A stretch of 64,000 bases of DNA. Source: Massilibacteroides sp. (GTDB lineage: Bacteria > Bacteroidota > Bacteroidia > Bacteroidales > Tannerellaceae). Every line of letters begins with the position of its first letter. The stretch's first letter is position 1. Below the pieces are notes generated by a model, which was not told the DNA's origin, did no database searches, and saw only the letters and a program-made list of their open reading frames with translations. The position numbers and the translations under genes were made by a program. Location: contig NZ_JAQWCQ010000003.1 of the NCBI RefSeq assembly GCF_028705895.1, positions 49,738-113,737 on the forward strand. Reading direction: 5' to 3'. Shown one piece after another: positions 6,309 through 55,648 of the stretch.

Positions 6309-6374
6309 GCCTATCCTGACAAGAAGTAAAGAAGGTTTCAAAAAAAAACTACTCGAACGAAAAACTAAAAACCG

Positions 6375-6382
6375 TAACTTTG
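6375..6382 (+). promoter_or_regulatory. Predicted -7 promoter element of pdxB
   Basis: TAACTTTG matches TAnnTTTG and lies 28 bases before the pdxB ATG, leaving a short A-rich leader typical of Bacteroidota. The ECF sigma gene 14 bases after pdxB may be served by the same promoter. Confidence 0.6.
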
Positions 6383-6410
6383 ACAGCAAGTAGAGACTAT
6401 AACAAAGAGA

Positions 6411-7520
6411 ATGAAAATAATAGCTGACAATACAATCCCTTTCCTAAAAGGAATTCCGGAAGAATTTGCAGAAGTAACGTATCTTACTTCAGAAGAGTTT
6501 TCTCCGGAGACAATCAAGAATGCAGATGCACTAATCGTACGCAGTATTGATAAATGTACCCGTGAATTATTAGAAGGTAGTTGCGTAAAACTAATTACTA
6601 CCGCTACAATTGGATTTGATCATATTGACACCGCCTATTGCAATGAAGCCGGGATTACATGGCGTAATGCGCCGGGATGCAATGCCGTTTCGGTATCACA
6701 ATATGTAATTGCGTCTCTATTTGCAGTTTCTCTACGTAAAAATGAATCTTTAAAAGATAAAACAATCGGTATTATCGGCGTTGGCCATGTCGGAAAGGAA
6801 ATAGAAAAACGTTGTTTGGCCTTAGGAATGCACGTCCTTCGGAACGACCCTCCTCGTGCTGCTCAAGAAGGAGAACAAGGATTTGTATCGTTAGACGAAA
6901 TAGCTCATAAAGCCGATATAATAACCGTACATACCCCTTTAGAGAGAAAAGGGAAATATGCCACCTTTCATTTAGCCAATGAAGAGTTCTTTTCCAAATT
7001 AAAAAGAAAGCCCTGGTTTGTGAATGCAGCGCGAGGAAGTATCCATGATACCTCAGCCCTATTACAAGCAAAAGAGAAAGGATTAATCAGCGAACTCATT
7101 TTAGATTGTTGGGAAAACGAGCCTTCGATTAACCCGGAGTTACTTCAGATTGCAGCCATTGCAACTCCTCATATAGCCGGATTCTCGGCAGATGGAAAAG
7201 CAAATGCAACGCGAGCCTGTCTCGAACATATTTCTTCCTTCTTTAACATTCCGAATGTACGAATAGCAGACGTGCTTCCGCCACCACCGGCAGAACCCAC
7301 CATTAATCTCGAAAGATTTCAAAAGAATCGAATAGAACAAGCTGTTTTTCACAGTTTCAATCCGGATAAGATCGACAAATCCCTTCGGAATGCCCCCCCC
7401 AAATTCGAATGGTTTCGTGCGAATTATTCTCACCCGAGAGAATTCTCTGCTTATACGATTATAAAAGCTACCCCCGAAGAACGTTTGTTGTTAGAAAGAT
7501 TAGGATATCTTTGCGAATAG
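6411..7520 (+). CDS. pdxB: 4-phosphoerythronate dehydrogenase
   Basis: NAD-dependent D-2-hydroxyacid dehydrogenase acting on 4-phospho-D-erythronate in the DXP-dependent pyridoxal phosphate pathway. At 369 residues it matches PdxB length. It has the Rossmann motif GIIGVGHVGKEIEKR near residue 121, the substrate/NAD loop NAARGSIHDTSAL near 205, DCWENEP near 230, and the catalytic His region ATPHIAGFS near 250. A C-terminal extension of ~90 residues (from about 285) corresponds to the PdxB dimerisation domain and separates it from generic phosphoglycerate dehydrogenases. The ECF sigma gene starts 14 bases downstream, so a housekeeping gene may transcriptionally lead the regulatory locus. Confidence 0.93.
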   Translation: MKIIADNTIPFLKGIPEEFAEVTYLTSEEFSPETIKNADALIVRSIDKCTRELLEGSCVKLITTATIGFDHIDTAYCNEAGITWRNAPGCNAVSVSQYVIASLFAVSLRKNESLKDKTIGIIGVGHVGKEIEKRCLALGMHVLRNDPPRAAQEGEQGFVSLDEIAHKADIITVHTPLERKGKYATFHLANEEFFSKLKRKPWFVNAARGSIHDTSALLQAKEKGLISELILDCWENEPSINPELLQIAAIATPHIAGFSADGKANATRACLEHISSFFNIPNVRIADVLPPPPAEPTINLERFQKNRIEQAVFHSFNPDKIDKSLRNAPPKFEWFRANYSHPREFSAYTIIKATPEERLLLERLGYLCE

Positions 7521-52409: not shown

Positions 52410-52844
52410 TTATTGCTTTCCGGTATGTCCGAATCCACCAGCACCTCGTTCCGTGTCATCTAAAGTTTCTTCCGGCTGCCATTCTACATGACCATGCGCA
52501 GCAATTACCATCTGGCAAATACGCTCACCATCATTTACGACAAAAGGCTCATTGGATAGATTGATCAGGATAATTCCTATTTCGCCACGATAATCCGCAT
52601 CGATCGTTCCGGGCGTATTCAACAAAGAAATACCATGCTTAATGGCCAGCCCACTACGCGGACGCATCTGTGCTTCATAACCCTCAGGGAGAGCAATATA
52701 TAATCCTGTCGGAATTAACCTACGTTCTAAAGGTTTGATTTCAACCGGTTCTGTCAGAAAAGCACGAATATCCATCCCCGCAGACAGAGGTGTTGCATAT
52801 TGAGGTAACGGGTGATGAGATTTATTTATAATCTTTACTTTCAT
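52410..52844 (-). CDS. dut: dUTP diphosphatase
   Basis: Trimeric dUTPase hydrolysing dUTP to dUMP, protecting DNA from uracil and feeding thymidylate synthesis. All five motifs are visible in 144 residues: AGMDIRAF near 24, [12 protein letters not shown] near 62, [20 protein letters not shown] near 77, RICQMVIA near 107, and the C-terminal [10 protein letters not shown]. It heads an operon with TPR, DUF4292 and EnvC-like genes; a nucleotide enzyme in front of envelope genes is unusual but I draw no functional link. Confidence 0.96.
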
Positions 52845-52874: not shown

Positions 52875-52877
52875 TTA

Positions 52878-52956
52878 AGGCTGAAAGCCTGATATAACTT
52901 AGCCCAACGCAACGCGTTGGGTATATAATTAAGATTTATCAACGCCCTGAATGGGC
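52878..52956 (+). repeat. Left hairpin set H1-H2-H3
   Basis: H1 52878-52890: AGGCT-GAA-AGCCT. H2 52903-52921: CCCAACGC-AAC-GCGTTGGG. H3 52944-52956: GCCC-TGAAT-GGGC. H3 ends 12 bases before the transposase stop (on the minus strand, just beyond the 3' end); H1 faces the dut promoter. Confidence 0.8.
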
Positions 52957-52968
52957 AGTATAATAATT

Positions 52969-53421
52969 TCAATTCCATAAATATTGTTCATTAAAATCAA
53001 TATTATACTCACTTAAAAAGCGAAGATATTCATCTTTAAATGAATATTTTTTATGATGCTCTTTCTGCAAGTTTATATATTCTTTCACAACCTTAACTTT
53101 AGACTGACTAACGGAATATCCCGCATAACCTCCCTGCCATGCAAAATTTTCATAATATCGATCTTTAGCTTTTATCCAACGACTACTATTACGTTTTATG
53201 TCCTCAACCAAAGTTGACAAGGCAATATTCTTTGACATAACACATAAAATATGAATGTGATTTTCCGTTCCATTAAGGAGTATTGGAATAGAGCCGGACT
53301 GTTTAATAATTGCACCAATATAAGCATACAATTCAGCCTCTATCTCAGACTTAATTAAACAAGTATTATCTTTTACATGAAAAATAACATGTATGTATAA
53401 TTTGGATAACGATTGTGCCAT
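52969..53421 (-). CDS. IS200/RAYT-type HUH tyrosine transposase
   Basis: 150-residue Y1_Tnp-family protein that would nick and rejoin single-stranded DNA at hairpins. The HUH pair is visible in NGTENHIHILCVM near residue 55, and the catalytic Tyr in VKEYINLQKEHHKKYSF near residue 114 with the following Q and HH typical of the family. Both ends look intact: MAQSLSKLYIHVIFHVKD at the start and the YNIDFNEQYLWN ending shared with many lone Y1 transposases. There is no TnpB. The start codon lies 8 bases from hairpin H3', which could restrict translation. Whether it moves itself or only its hairpins is unknown. Confidence 0.92.
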   Translation of the reverse strand: MAQSLSKLYIHVIFHVKDNTCLIKSEIEAELYAYIGAIIKQSGSIPILLNGTENHIHILCVMSKNIALSTLVEDIKRNSSRWIKAKDRYYENFAWQGGYAGYSVSQSKVKVVKEYINLQKEHHKKYSFKDEYLRFLSEYNIDFNEQYLWN

Positions 53422-53429
53422 TTTATATT

Positions 53430-53507
53430 GTCCTTACAGGACGCTTTGTTCGTTACATAAATACCCAATGCGTTGCATTGGGCTATATTATTTAGGGCTT
53501 TCAGCCC
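53430..53507 (-). repeat. Right hairpin set H3'-H2'-H1' (inverted copy)
   Basis: Read on the minus strand: H1' 53495-53507 GGGCT-GAA-AGCCC; H2' 53464-53482 CCCAATGC-AAC-GCATTGGG (read as its complement the loop is GTT); H3' 53430-53442 GTCC-TGTAA-GGAC. Relative to the left set, H1 changes A-T to G-C, H2 changes C-G to T-A, and H3 changes C-G to T-A, always keeping the pair. Beyond it, 53508-53812 contains only two short hairpins (53665-53677, GAAGC-AAA-GCTTC; a CCTAA/TTAGG pair near 53738-53757 that might weakly end ispG transcription) and no gene. Confidence 0.8.
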
Positions 53508-53812
53508 ATATTTTTCTTAGATTGAGTCATAAAAACTATCAACCGAAAACACGACGTTTTTAATCTCTCCGATACTCATGTGAAACATTTTCTCCTTTCG
53601 TTGCGAATATACTGTTTTTGAGTGAGAAAACTTATGAAATGAACAGTTTTTCACACCTTGTAACGAAGCAAAGCTTCAAATTAAATTTTTATTTCAATTA
53701 TACGTTTTATTTATCGAACTGAGGAATCATTTAACCAGCCTAATACATTTACGTTAGGTAATGATGGCTATATCTTTCGTACTGAAAGGACATGATAGAA
53801 ATTTCTGACAGC

Positions 53813-55648
53813 TTAGTTTTGCCAGTCTCCGTTCTCTTTTATTAACTGAACTAAGCGTTCTACGGCTTCTGCTTCGGGGACACTGCGCACGATACAGGTC
53901 TTTCCTTTGTACAGGCTGATCTGGCCCTTTCCGGCTCCAACGTAGCCGTAATCGGCATCAGCCATTTCTCCGGGACCATTAACGATGCAGCCCATGATTC
54001 CTATTTTAAGGCCTTTCAGGTGCGAGGTGGCTGCTTTTACGCGGGCAATAGTGGATTGGAGATTGTATAATGTTCGTCCACAACCCGGACAAGAGATAAA
54101 TTCGGTCTTGCTGATTCTTGTTCTCGTTGCCTGAAGGATACCAAACATGCAGTTATCAATGACTAATGCATCTAAGTTTTCATCCTGCAGCAGGATTCCG
54201 TCTCCAAATCCATCCAAGAAAAGTGCTCCGAAATCGGAAGCTGACTCAAGTTGCAGGGATTCTTTATCGGCTTCGGTATATTCTCTGTTCAGAATGACAG
54301 GGACATCGCATCCGGCTGTTAATAATTTATGCATAGCTGCCCGCTGGTGACCTAACCCGTTCACATGGCTTGTTGTCAGAATAACAACGGCTGTTTCATC
54401 TTCTTTAAGGAAGGTAATTACTTCTTCAGACAGATCATCATAAGAGAGCCGAATGAATTTAAGTTCTGCTTTACAGGAAACAGCGCTCCCCACTTCATCG
54501 GCTCTGAAGTAAGGATACGTGTCCTTCTCTCCTTTCCATGCGGATCCATCCAAGATCAACGGTACGCCTTGAGGTAAGTTTTCGGGGACAATCGTTCCTG
54601 TATAGAAATAATCAGGAACAGCATTTTTATCTATTGCATAATTTCCATTTCTACGATCAGAAATCACTACAGGAGGATGGGGAAAACCAATTCCTTTAAC
54701 TACACGGGAATGACGACGTTCCGTTGTTATCGGATCAAACCCGGGAGTGGATTCTGCGTTGATCGAAGCATGTCCTTTTCTTTTCTCGATATAAGCCAGC
54801 AGTTTCCTTCCAACCGGCACTTCTACCTCCGGTTCTTCGCTTAACGAGACACGGATTGTATCTCCTATCCCATCAGCCAATAAAGTACCGATACCTACGG
54901 CGCTTTTGATACGTCCGTCTTCTCCGTCGCCAGCCTCCGTCACACCCAGATGTAGCGGATAGTGCATATCTTCCGCATCCATCGTGCGAACTAACAAGCG
55001 TACGGCACGAACCATCAATACCGTATTCGAAGCCTTCATGGAGATGGCCACATCATGAAAATTTTCATCACGGCATATCCTCAGAAACTCCATGCACGAA
55101 GCCACCATTCCTTCAGGGGTATCACCGTAGCGGCTCATGATTCGATCCGAGAGCGAACCATGGTTCACTCCGATTCGCACAGCGGTATGATGTTCTTTAC
55201 ATAAATTGAGAAAAGGCACAAAACGCGCTCTGATTTTTTCTAATTCTGCGGCGTATTCCTCTTCGGTATATTCAATATGATTAAACGTCTTTTGTTTGTC
55301 CACATAATTACCGGGATTCACGCGTACTTTCTCGACTGTCGTAGCGGCAACATCAGCAGCACGTGGATTAAAGTGTATATCGGCAATCAAGGGCGTACGG
55401 TATCCCTGTTCATCTAAAAGCTGTCGGATCACGCCTAAATTACGCGACTCACGCTCACCCTGAGCCGTGAAACGCACATAATCTGCTCCGGCATCAATAA
55501 TACGTATAGCTTGTTGTACTGCGGCTTCGGTATCCATTGTAGATACGCTGGCCATGGACTGAACACGAACGGGGTTTTCGCCTCCCAGCGGTGTATCTCC
55601 TATACGGGTAACAGAAGATACGCGGCGTTTATAATTGAAATAATCCAT
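53813..55648 (-). CDS. ispG: 4-hydroxy-3-methylbut-2-en-1-yl diphosphate synthase (GcpE)
   Basis: [4Fe-4S] enzyme of the MEP isoprenoid pathway, converting MEcPP to HMBPP. At 611 residues it is the long form with a large insert between the N-terminal TIM barrel and the C-terminal cluster domain, as in Bacteroidota, Chlamydiae and plants. N-terminal landmarks are NPVRVQSMASVSTMDTEA near residue 26 and FNPRAADVAATTVEKVRVNP near 98. Cluster ligands lie in SCPGCGRTLYNLQ near 515 and IGIMGCIVNGPGEMADADYG near 550. It follows purE by 15 bases and is the last gene of the rpoN-to-ispG run. Confidence 0.97.
   Translation of the reverse strand: MDYFNYKRRVSSVTRIGDTPLGGENPVRVQSMASVSTMDTEAAVQQAIRIIDAGADYVRFTAQGERESRNLGVIRQLLDEQGYRTPLIADIHFNPRAADVAATTVEKVRVNPGNYVDKQKTFNHIEYTEEEYAAELEKIRARFVPFLNLCKEHHTAVRIGVNHGSLSDRIMSRYGDTPEGMVASCMEFLRICRDENFHDVAISMKASNTVLMVRAVRLLVRTMDAEDMHYPLHLGVTEAGDGEDGRIKSAVGIGTLLADGIGDTIRVSLSEEPEVEVPVGRKLLAYIEKRKGHASINAESTPGFDPITTERRHSRVVKGIGFPHPPVVISDRRNGNYAIDKNAVPDYFYTGTIVPENLPQGVPLILDGSAWKGEKDTYPYFRADEVGSAVSCKAELKFIRLSYDDLSEEVITFLKEDETAVVILTTSHVNGLGHQRAAMHKLLTAGCDVPVILNREYTEADKESLQLESASDFGALFLDGFGDGILLQDENLDALVIDNCMFGILQATRTRISKTEFISCPGCGRTLYNLQSTIARVKAATSHLKGLKIGIMGCIVNGPGEMADADYGYVGAGKGQISLYKGKTCIVRSVPEAEAVERLVQLIKENGDWQN

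Follow-up and report, generated by a model that had tools for sequence, protein, structure and literature searches.

Within the window (the whole stretch of 64,000 nucleotides that was analysed), a gene for a Y1 (HUH) transposase, tnpA, is set between two modules of three hairpins each, the right one inverted relative to the left (Table 1). The neighbouring open reading frames (ORFs), at 52410-52844 and 53813-55648, are those of genes that we take to be dut and ispG. On either side the hairpins H1, H2 and H3 follow one another from the outside to the inside, with spacers of 12 nt (H1–H2) and 22 nt (H2–H3) on the left and of 12 and 21 nt on the right, and only 8 nt separate the right H3 from the tnpA start codon that follows it; the coordinates, hairpin order and spacings given in an earlier note on this DNA all agree with the sequence. 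The two flanks together form a 54-nt inverted repeat that is 81% complementary. A search of the whole window for H2-type hairpins with up to three mismatches returns two matches against a shuffled mean of 0.06, more than chance would give, and one of 100 shuffled windows also reaches two. At the edges of the unit, where the window junctions are not clean, inspection by eye finds neither a TIR beyond the modules nor a target-site duplication.

Table 1. Features of the unit in window coordinates. Both modules are rows in the 52-row alignment behind covariance model R1, with which they are scored here.
Feature	Position	Strand	Remarks
Left triple-hairpin module (H1-H2-H3, outside to inside)	52876..52959	+	R1, 73.4 bits
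Rfam RF01687 (Acido-Lenti-1) match, H2 then H1, inside to outside	52877..52921	-	43.1 bits; gathering score 37
Left H1, AGGCTGAAAGCCT	52878-52890	+	5-bp stem in a 13-nt hairpin
Left H2, CCCAACGCAACGCGTTGGG	52903-52921	+	8-bp stem; TTAG just 5'
Left H3, GCCCTGAATGGGC	52944-52956	+	Four pairs; loop-closing position mismatched (T.T)
Y1 (HUH) transposase gene, subclass 1.2 type	52969..53421	-	150 aa; HIH and YINLQKEHH
Right triple-hairpin module, inverted	53427..53509	-	R1, 66.6 bits
Right H3, GTCCTGTAAGGAC	53430..53442 (minus-strand reading 53442-53430)	-	
Right H2, CCCAATGCAACGCATTGGG	53464..53482 (minus-strand reading 53482-53464)	-	ATAG just 5' on the minus strand
RF01687 match, sub-threshold	53464..53508	+	29.7 bits (gathering score 37); E 0.00022
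Right H1, GGGCTGAAAGCCC	53495..53507 (minus-strand reading 53507-53495)	-	

Between the left and right sides, each hairpin shows a compensated pair change, A-T to G-C in H1 and C-G to T-A in both H2 and H3. The earlier note had counted one compensated pair per hairpin, which is correct for H1, H2 and H3, except that the left H3 also carries a broken pair: its fifth, loop-closing pair is T.T instead of T-A. Since the H3 loops differ between the two sides as well, H3 was not altered by compensation alone.

The product of tnpA matches PF01797 (Y1_Tnp) with 75 bits and is the single Y1_Tnp match in its genome at E 0.001. Residues H55, H57, Y115, Q119, H122 and H123 are invariant across 48 aligned relatives, in which the HUH, W-Q-x-GY and Y---Q--HH motifs are kept. 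A search of the PDB with the single TnpA sequence gave no match, whereas a profile search did. The structure predicted by AlphaFold2 (pLDDT 91) was compared by Foldseek, with 2vhg as the best match (E 1.4e-8) and the TnpA proteins of IS608 and ISDra2 as the nearest folds; the TnpAREP structure 4er8 appears only at rank 30.

In the passages of Quentin et al. 2018 (PMC6006769) drawn on here, Y---Q--HH characterizes TnpA subclass 1.2, and by this motif the enzyme of the window belongs to that subclass. It shares with the subclass, besides the motif, a length of about 150 aa, a C-terminal extension and a low copy number, and the loci analysed here are mostly from Bacteroidetes; the same passages (PMC6006769) place the subclass mostly in Cyanobacteria and Bacteroidetes. 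The reading of the gene as a RAYT, put forward earlier, does not hold, because the classical RAYT is a class 2 enzyme with Y---NP and a GTAG foot. According to those passages (PMC6006769), subclass 1.2 is generally without the typical terminal secondary structures of the IS200 type and is entered with 'no' in the REP column. The relatives examined here differ in this respect, since 74 of 81 genes have a module on one or both flanks, the absence of terminal structures being a described and not a defining trait of the subclass.

The relatives comprise 80 named loci, the best 80 of 581 confirmed, together with those genomes of the family that hold a tnpA homologue (29 of 123). A detector of perfect stems, applied to 92 tnpA genes (three of 95 were left out for flanks that were too short), finds H1–H2 upstream of 43, downstream of 44 and on both sides of 31; 1900 control pairs placed 700 bp or more away give 0.63% single-sided hits and no two-sided ones. 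With R1, and with a module scored as flanking when it lies within 200 bp of the gene, the 81 genes in the best 80 of 581 loci have modules on both sides in 51 cases, on one side in 23 and on neither in 7. For 51 genes from loci outside the building of the model, the corresponding counts are 23, 21 and 7, and 16000 pseudo-genes give none with modules on both sides and 726 with a module on one. The nearest module has the expected orientation in 63 cases against 5 upstream and in 58 against 9 downstream. Within the family set, 11 of 29 tnpA loci have no module match nearby, and these are the more distant homologues (28-41% identity). Carriers beyond Bacteroidota are found in Phycisphaerae, other Planctomycetota, Verrucomicrobiaceae and Ignavibacteria, as well as in a Methylococcaceae bin and a Thermoanaerobaculia bin. 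Three hairpins per side, which the earlier note had called a richer arrangement than that of known RAYT units, is thus not peculiar to the unit in the window, and most of the relatives examined are flanked by the same set. Two variants of the layout are seen: two adjoining tnpA genes with modules on both sides of each (L142:2877-4672), and tandem H1–H2 doublets on either side of tnpA (L046:1185-2167).

The general module consists of H1 (13 nt), about 12 nt, H2 (19-20 nt), about 24 nt and H3 (13 nt). The consensus of 52 units (57 three-hairpin units listed by the detector minus six, namely L036, L044, two of L142, L179 and L195, plus the left module of the window) reads AGCCCTGAAAGGGCG, about 10 bases, TAG, CCCAGGGC AAC GCCCTGGG, about 24 bases, AGCCCTGAAAGGGCG. 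Immediately 5' of H2 stands NYAG in 47 of the 52 units (AG in 48, GTAG in 2). An AG foot is also present at H1 in 24 and at H3 in 26 units, and a CCC..GGG core occupies H1 in 23; judged by these feet and this core, H1, H2 and H3 seem to share a single polarity.

The earlier proposal that structure rather than sequence is conserved is borne out by covariation. In the 52-unit set (A2), both partners vary in 16 of the 18 base pairs, and the double-change cells number 165, where shuffles average 42 and slid controls do not exceed 47; pairing in A2 is, however, inflated by its selection for perfect stems. Two further sets, A3 and A4, whose units were found by R1 and not by perfect stems, and which are hence also biased towards the model, contain 265 and 206 double-change cells, far above shuffles and slides, and 97.8% and 98.7% paired cells. 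Of the paired cells outside the loop-closing positions, about 5% and 2% in the two model-found sets are wobble pairs, a low share whose meaning is limited by the training of R1 on Watson–Crick stems. Covariation of this kind cannot separate folding as DNA from folding as RNA.

The outer two hairpins lead to a family already in Rfam. The RF01687 (Acido-Lenti-1) consensus is composed of an 8-bp hairpin, a 12-nt linker starting with CUA and a 5-bp hairpin with the loop UUC. Read from inside to outside, H2–H1 of the module is the same two-hairpin motif, including the 3-nt loop of the smaller hairpin; RF01687 differs in being typed as an sRNA and catalogued as a probable RNA from Acidobacteria and Lentisphaerae, and H3 and the inverted transposase context lie outside the family. 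Among loci preselected for tnpA or modules, a choice that says nothing on the location of RF01687 in general, 23 of 24 RF01687 matches lie inside an R1 module, on its H2–H1 part, while the remaining match, at L171, overlaps a module that belongs to an array. In three sets of loci, 6 of 9, 5 of 20 and 0 of 11 reach the gathering score, and the Rfam model therefore covers part of the module diversity. Locus L149 (Acidobacteriota, Thermoanaerobaculia), which has tnpA and R1 modules, is without an RF01687 match at E 0.01. Copies of Acido-Lenti-1 are on record close to group II introns. The passages of Weinberg et al. 2010 (PMC2864571) used here introduce the family as probably an RNA, from Acidobacteria and Lentisphaerae, and multiple copies are mentioned for Vibrio anguillarum in part of another paper (PMC10059132). 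The portions of a 2026 paper (PMC13298647) on which we draw describe its function as little known and mention no transposases near the copies under discussion. Our search of the literature, which covered main texts and, for most papers, listing entries, largely from open-access journals, found no link between Acido-Lenti-1 and a transposase, and the hairpin strings of the module, searched for in papers, were not found.

The modules are also present without the gene. In the genome of the window (G000), the left flank as a query gives 51 matches at E up to 10; these are not independent transpositions, a reading that we considered and rejected, because about 22 copies represent one cassette nested in a TIR element. 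The composite contains a cassette, H1-H2-H3...H3-H2-H1, within a TIR element with the ends CCAATGTCATCAACT and an 8-bp target duplication TTTAGAGA, which is itself within a larger repeat. The 22 copies of one flank that lead into the nested cassette include three that end at a contig end inside H1 (L100, L108 and L111), one collapsed cassette (L032) and five shortened cassettes, e.g., L023. Six copies of the larger repeat are without the TIR element and show the empty site. Independent of the composite are one cassette (L028) and one module (L029). We note that the nest has three layers at L117-L122 and L003, where the outermost larger repeat starts with GGATCAGGC, and that the TIR of this genome resembles CAATGTCATTGACTTAAG, located near modules in Flavipsychrobacter stenotrophus (G149).

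Among 123 genomes of the family, under stricter filters and with up to 36 candidates scored per genome, module matches occur in at least 52, at least 31 of which have no tnpA match. The tnpA-negative G078 (99% complete) holds many modules, its candidates reaching this limit of 36. Modules are present in 21 of 29 tnpA-positive genomes, where the gene's own flank modules are included, versus 31 of 94 tnpA-negative ones (odds ratio 5.3, p 2e-4); the other 8 tnpA-positive genomes have no module among the candidates scored. All 22 named carriers hold modules, 2-83 each, counts that include the flank modules of the gene itself and possibly nothing else in G140 and G156. The layouts seen are solos, plus/minus pairs with a short gap, minus/plus pairs and direct tandems, and gene-less copies, either solitary or as inverted pairs that measure about 170-210 bp, sit between genes. 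None of 53 modules checked (the best 52 plus L276:4031, out of 68 modules in 20 regions, at least four of the 53 flanking a tnpA, two in L264 and two in L270) lies inside an ORF of at least 150 aa, although such ORFs make up 78% of the bases.

Dispersed modules were compared with the tnpA flanks of 12 genomes. The flank from the same genome is the best match for 5 of 5 modules in G000, 13 of 13 in G024, 2 of 2 in G088 and 1 of 1 in G139, for 6 of 18 in G149 (the gene's own other flank having been dropped from 19), and for 0 of 11 in G120, where the own flank ranks second behind G024 and where the flanks of two of the four tnpA genes were left out of the matching. The tnpA-positive G120 and G024, with 4 and 2 tnpA matches, contain 18 gene-less inverted cassettes of 173-211 bp, whose shared sequence often stops at the H1 feet. 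At least 7 of these cassettes are bordered, on one side or on both, by an outer motif, GGGCTGTTAAATTCTC, others sit between other inverted sequences, and TIR-like flanks surround modules in G149, G120 and G024. Two single loci are described here for their structure: in L338, a module-bearing TIR element with AAGTGTTCGAAAC ends has apparently inserted in the H2 loop region of another module, and the cassette at L372:406-608 has different inverted-repeat types on the left and on the right, as if cassettes recombine between carriers.

Related strains were compared at several sites, where gene and modules are present or absent together. In Bacteroides xylanisolvens XB1A, about six tandem H1-bearing partial repeats, a module, tnpA and a second module make up a block, about 1.1 kb long, that follows the stop codon of a gene. 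These partial modules, 63-67 bp long with H1 and a broken H2, lie beside the tnpA module at L158:2515-2900. The unit is missing at the same site in six of seven relatives (0-159 bp there), the seventh having another gene, and the block was presumably gained in XB1A, not lost elsewhere. A solo module of XB1A, close to the tnpA flank module with spacers included, is missing from the syntenic gap of G204, with flanks 91% and 97% identical. In the congeners G030 and G031, the gap between the neighbour genes measures 35 and 38 bp, versus 960 in the genome of the window, and neither a tnpA match nor a module match was found in these two. On the other hand, the 7 of 81 genes in the named loci and the 11 of 29 family loci mentioned above have the gene and no module match. 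About 300 bp to the right of the unit (53508-53813) have no counterpart in the congeners' gap of 35-38 bp and are assigned to no element.

An exact junction is available in G078. Two module-bearing elements of 370-400 bp with CCCARATTMCGC ends lie at L276:3985-4380 and 6372-6750; the element studied, the second, has a 5-bp duplication, TTGAA, and an exact empty site in G081. This site was considered as a cassette insertion and discarded as such, the inserted DNA being a TIR element with a 5-bp duplication. For a stand-alone cassette, no exact empty site was obtained among the strain pairs compared: the Marinilabilia pair G141/G142 shows absence of the cassette and no exact junction, and G120 is too divergent from its genus for site comparison (long syntenic matches of 65-83% identity). 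The modules inside the TIR carriers of G000 and G078 multiply with the carrier, and the 8-bp and 5-bp duplications of these carriers imply that spread there was not by the Y1 enzyme; the carriers would have been moved by DDE transposases. Amplification as a passenger is thus common, and the part of the Y1 enzyme would lie in the movement of cassettes. Of the earlier suggestion that the transposase mobilises hairpin cassettes around the genome, the occurrence of the hairpins elsewhere in this genome and of transposase-free H1-H2-H3 cassettes here and in other genomes stands, but copy number in the genome of the window is no evidence for Y1-driven movement.

The system has features of several known ones. 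Like a REPtron (TnpAREP/RAYT), it has a single gene with inverted palindromes at its two sides, related palindromes scattered over intergenic sites, inverted pairs and hairpins with a 5' foot motif. In contrast to a REPtron, the enzyme is of class 1 and lacks the class 2 Y---NP, the foot is NYAG on H2 (47 of 52 units, against two with GTAG) instead of GT[AG]G, and each half has three hairpins of one polarity. Dispersal between genes is seen in other genomes, whereas in the genome of the window it is mostly by nesting. We therefore judge the system to be likely REPtron-like in its working and, for want of the class 2 motif and the GTAG foot, no REPtron by membership. With IS200/IS605 elements (IS608, ISDra2) it shares the HUH-Y1 fold, the catalytic residues and subterminal hairpins. 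Those hairpins are on the same strand in IS200/IS605, whereas here the ends are inverted with three hairpins per end, and the genome of the window has no further tnpA copies. The GTAG- and CGTC-tagged REPs, as they appear in the parts of Di Nocera et al. 2013 (PMC3733652) used here, are likewise short palindromes, form dimers and in some cases lie within larger palindromes. Their CGTC class includes Bacteroidetes and has no known transposase in that account (PMC3733652), whereas the present modules consist of three hairpins and adjoin a Y1 gene. In G000 and G078, the elements that carry dispersed modules have the TIR and target duplication of a DDE-type MITE. Compared with the ends described in this literature, the module end is richer.

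We consider it somewhat probable that these loci form a REPtron-like system, in which a subclass 1.2 enzyme recognizes three-hairpin ends and moves cassettes of modules. Recognition and mobilization by TnpA would proceed as follows. Single strands exposed at replication would fold into the module hairpins, and TnpA would recognize the modules as folded single-stranded DNA. The enzyme may bind H2 together with the NYAG foot, which would be analogous to the 5' guide sequences reported, in the passages of PMC6006769 drawn on here, for IS608 TnpA and TnpAREP; NYAG is in this sense a candidate guide sequence, and H1 and H3 would be extra sites of the same polarity as H2. Cutting and rejoining at the ends would move the cassette, and the gene of TnpA itself would be moved more rarely.

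The nested modules with a target duplication of 8 bp in G000 and of 5 bp in G078, the latter with its exact empty site in G081, the TIR-like flanks in G149, G120 and G024, the many modules in tnpA-negative genomes and the single copy of tnpA in the genome of the window would also be expected if the modules were mere passengers of DDE-type TIR elements and the Y1 enzyme a domesticated nuclease that processes or removes hairpins and mobilizes nothing. We hold this to be unlikely, because the outer repeats vary by lineage while the module architecture is constant, which suggests repeated entry into carriers, because solo modules without visibly shared flanks occur (L273, several in G149), and because tnpA and modules co-occur. 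An ordinary IS200/IS605 insertion sequence that moves whole, with dispersed modules as its decayed ends, is highly improbable in our view: the ends here are inverted, unlike the same-strand subterminal hairpins of IS608, the genome of the window has one copy of the gene, and G120 and G024 hold 18 gene-less cassettes versus their 4 and 2 tnpA matches. It would nevertheless fit the lineage-specific block of gene and modules in B. xylanisolvens and in the genus of the window, the patchy distribution of tnpA (29 of 123 family genomes) and the two adjoining module-flanked genes in L142.

The hairpins could instead act as RNA, either as an sRNA or as a 3'-end or terminator, their place by the transposase reflecting gene control or chance. 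H2–H1 does reach the gathering score of RF01687, an sRNA family, on the left side in the window and at other loci, the right H3 is 8 nt from a start codon, and covariation is blind to DNA versus RNA. Mirror modules on both sides in 51 of 81 relatives would however be superfluous for an RNA control element, the copies are scattered and sit within mobile elements, and wobble pairs are just about 5% and 2% of paired cells outside the loop-closing positions, though R1 was trained on Watson–Crick stems; we regard a role as RNA as quite unlikely. A wider form of the REPtron-like reading stands, in our judgement, at an even balance: subclass 1.2 Y1 enzymes would be the engine of a widespread, so far undescribed class of single-strand DNA elements whose ends are three NYAG-footed hairpins of the same polarity, Acido-Lenti-1 would be the outer two DNA hairpins of these elements and not an RNA, and the cassettes would repeatedly ride DDE-type MITEs, giving two-layer elements.

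The modules are a probable DNA substrate for a transposase subclass previously left without one, and a possible explanation for an Rfam RNA family of little-known function. If this is true, Acido-Lenti-1 'ncRNA' annotations near genes would mark mobile DNA, and the multi-hairpin end would be a new test case for the choice of cleavage site by HUH enzymes.
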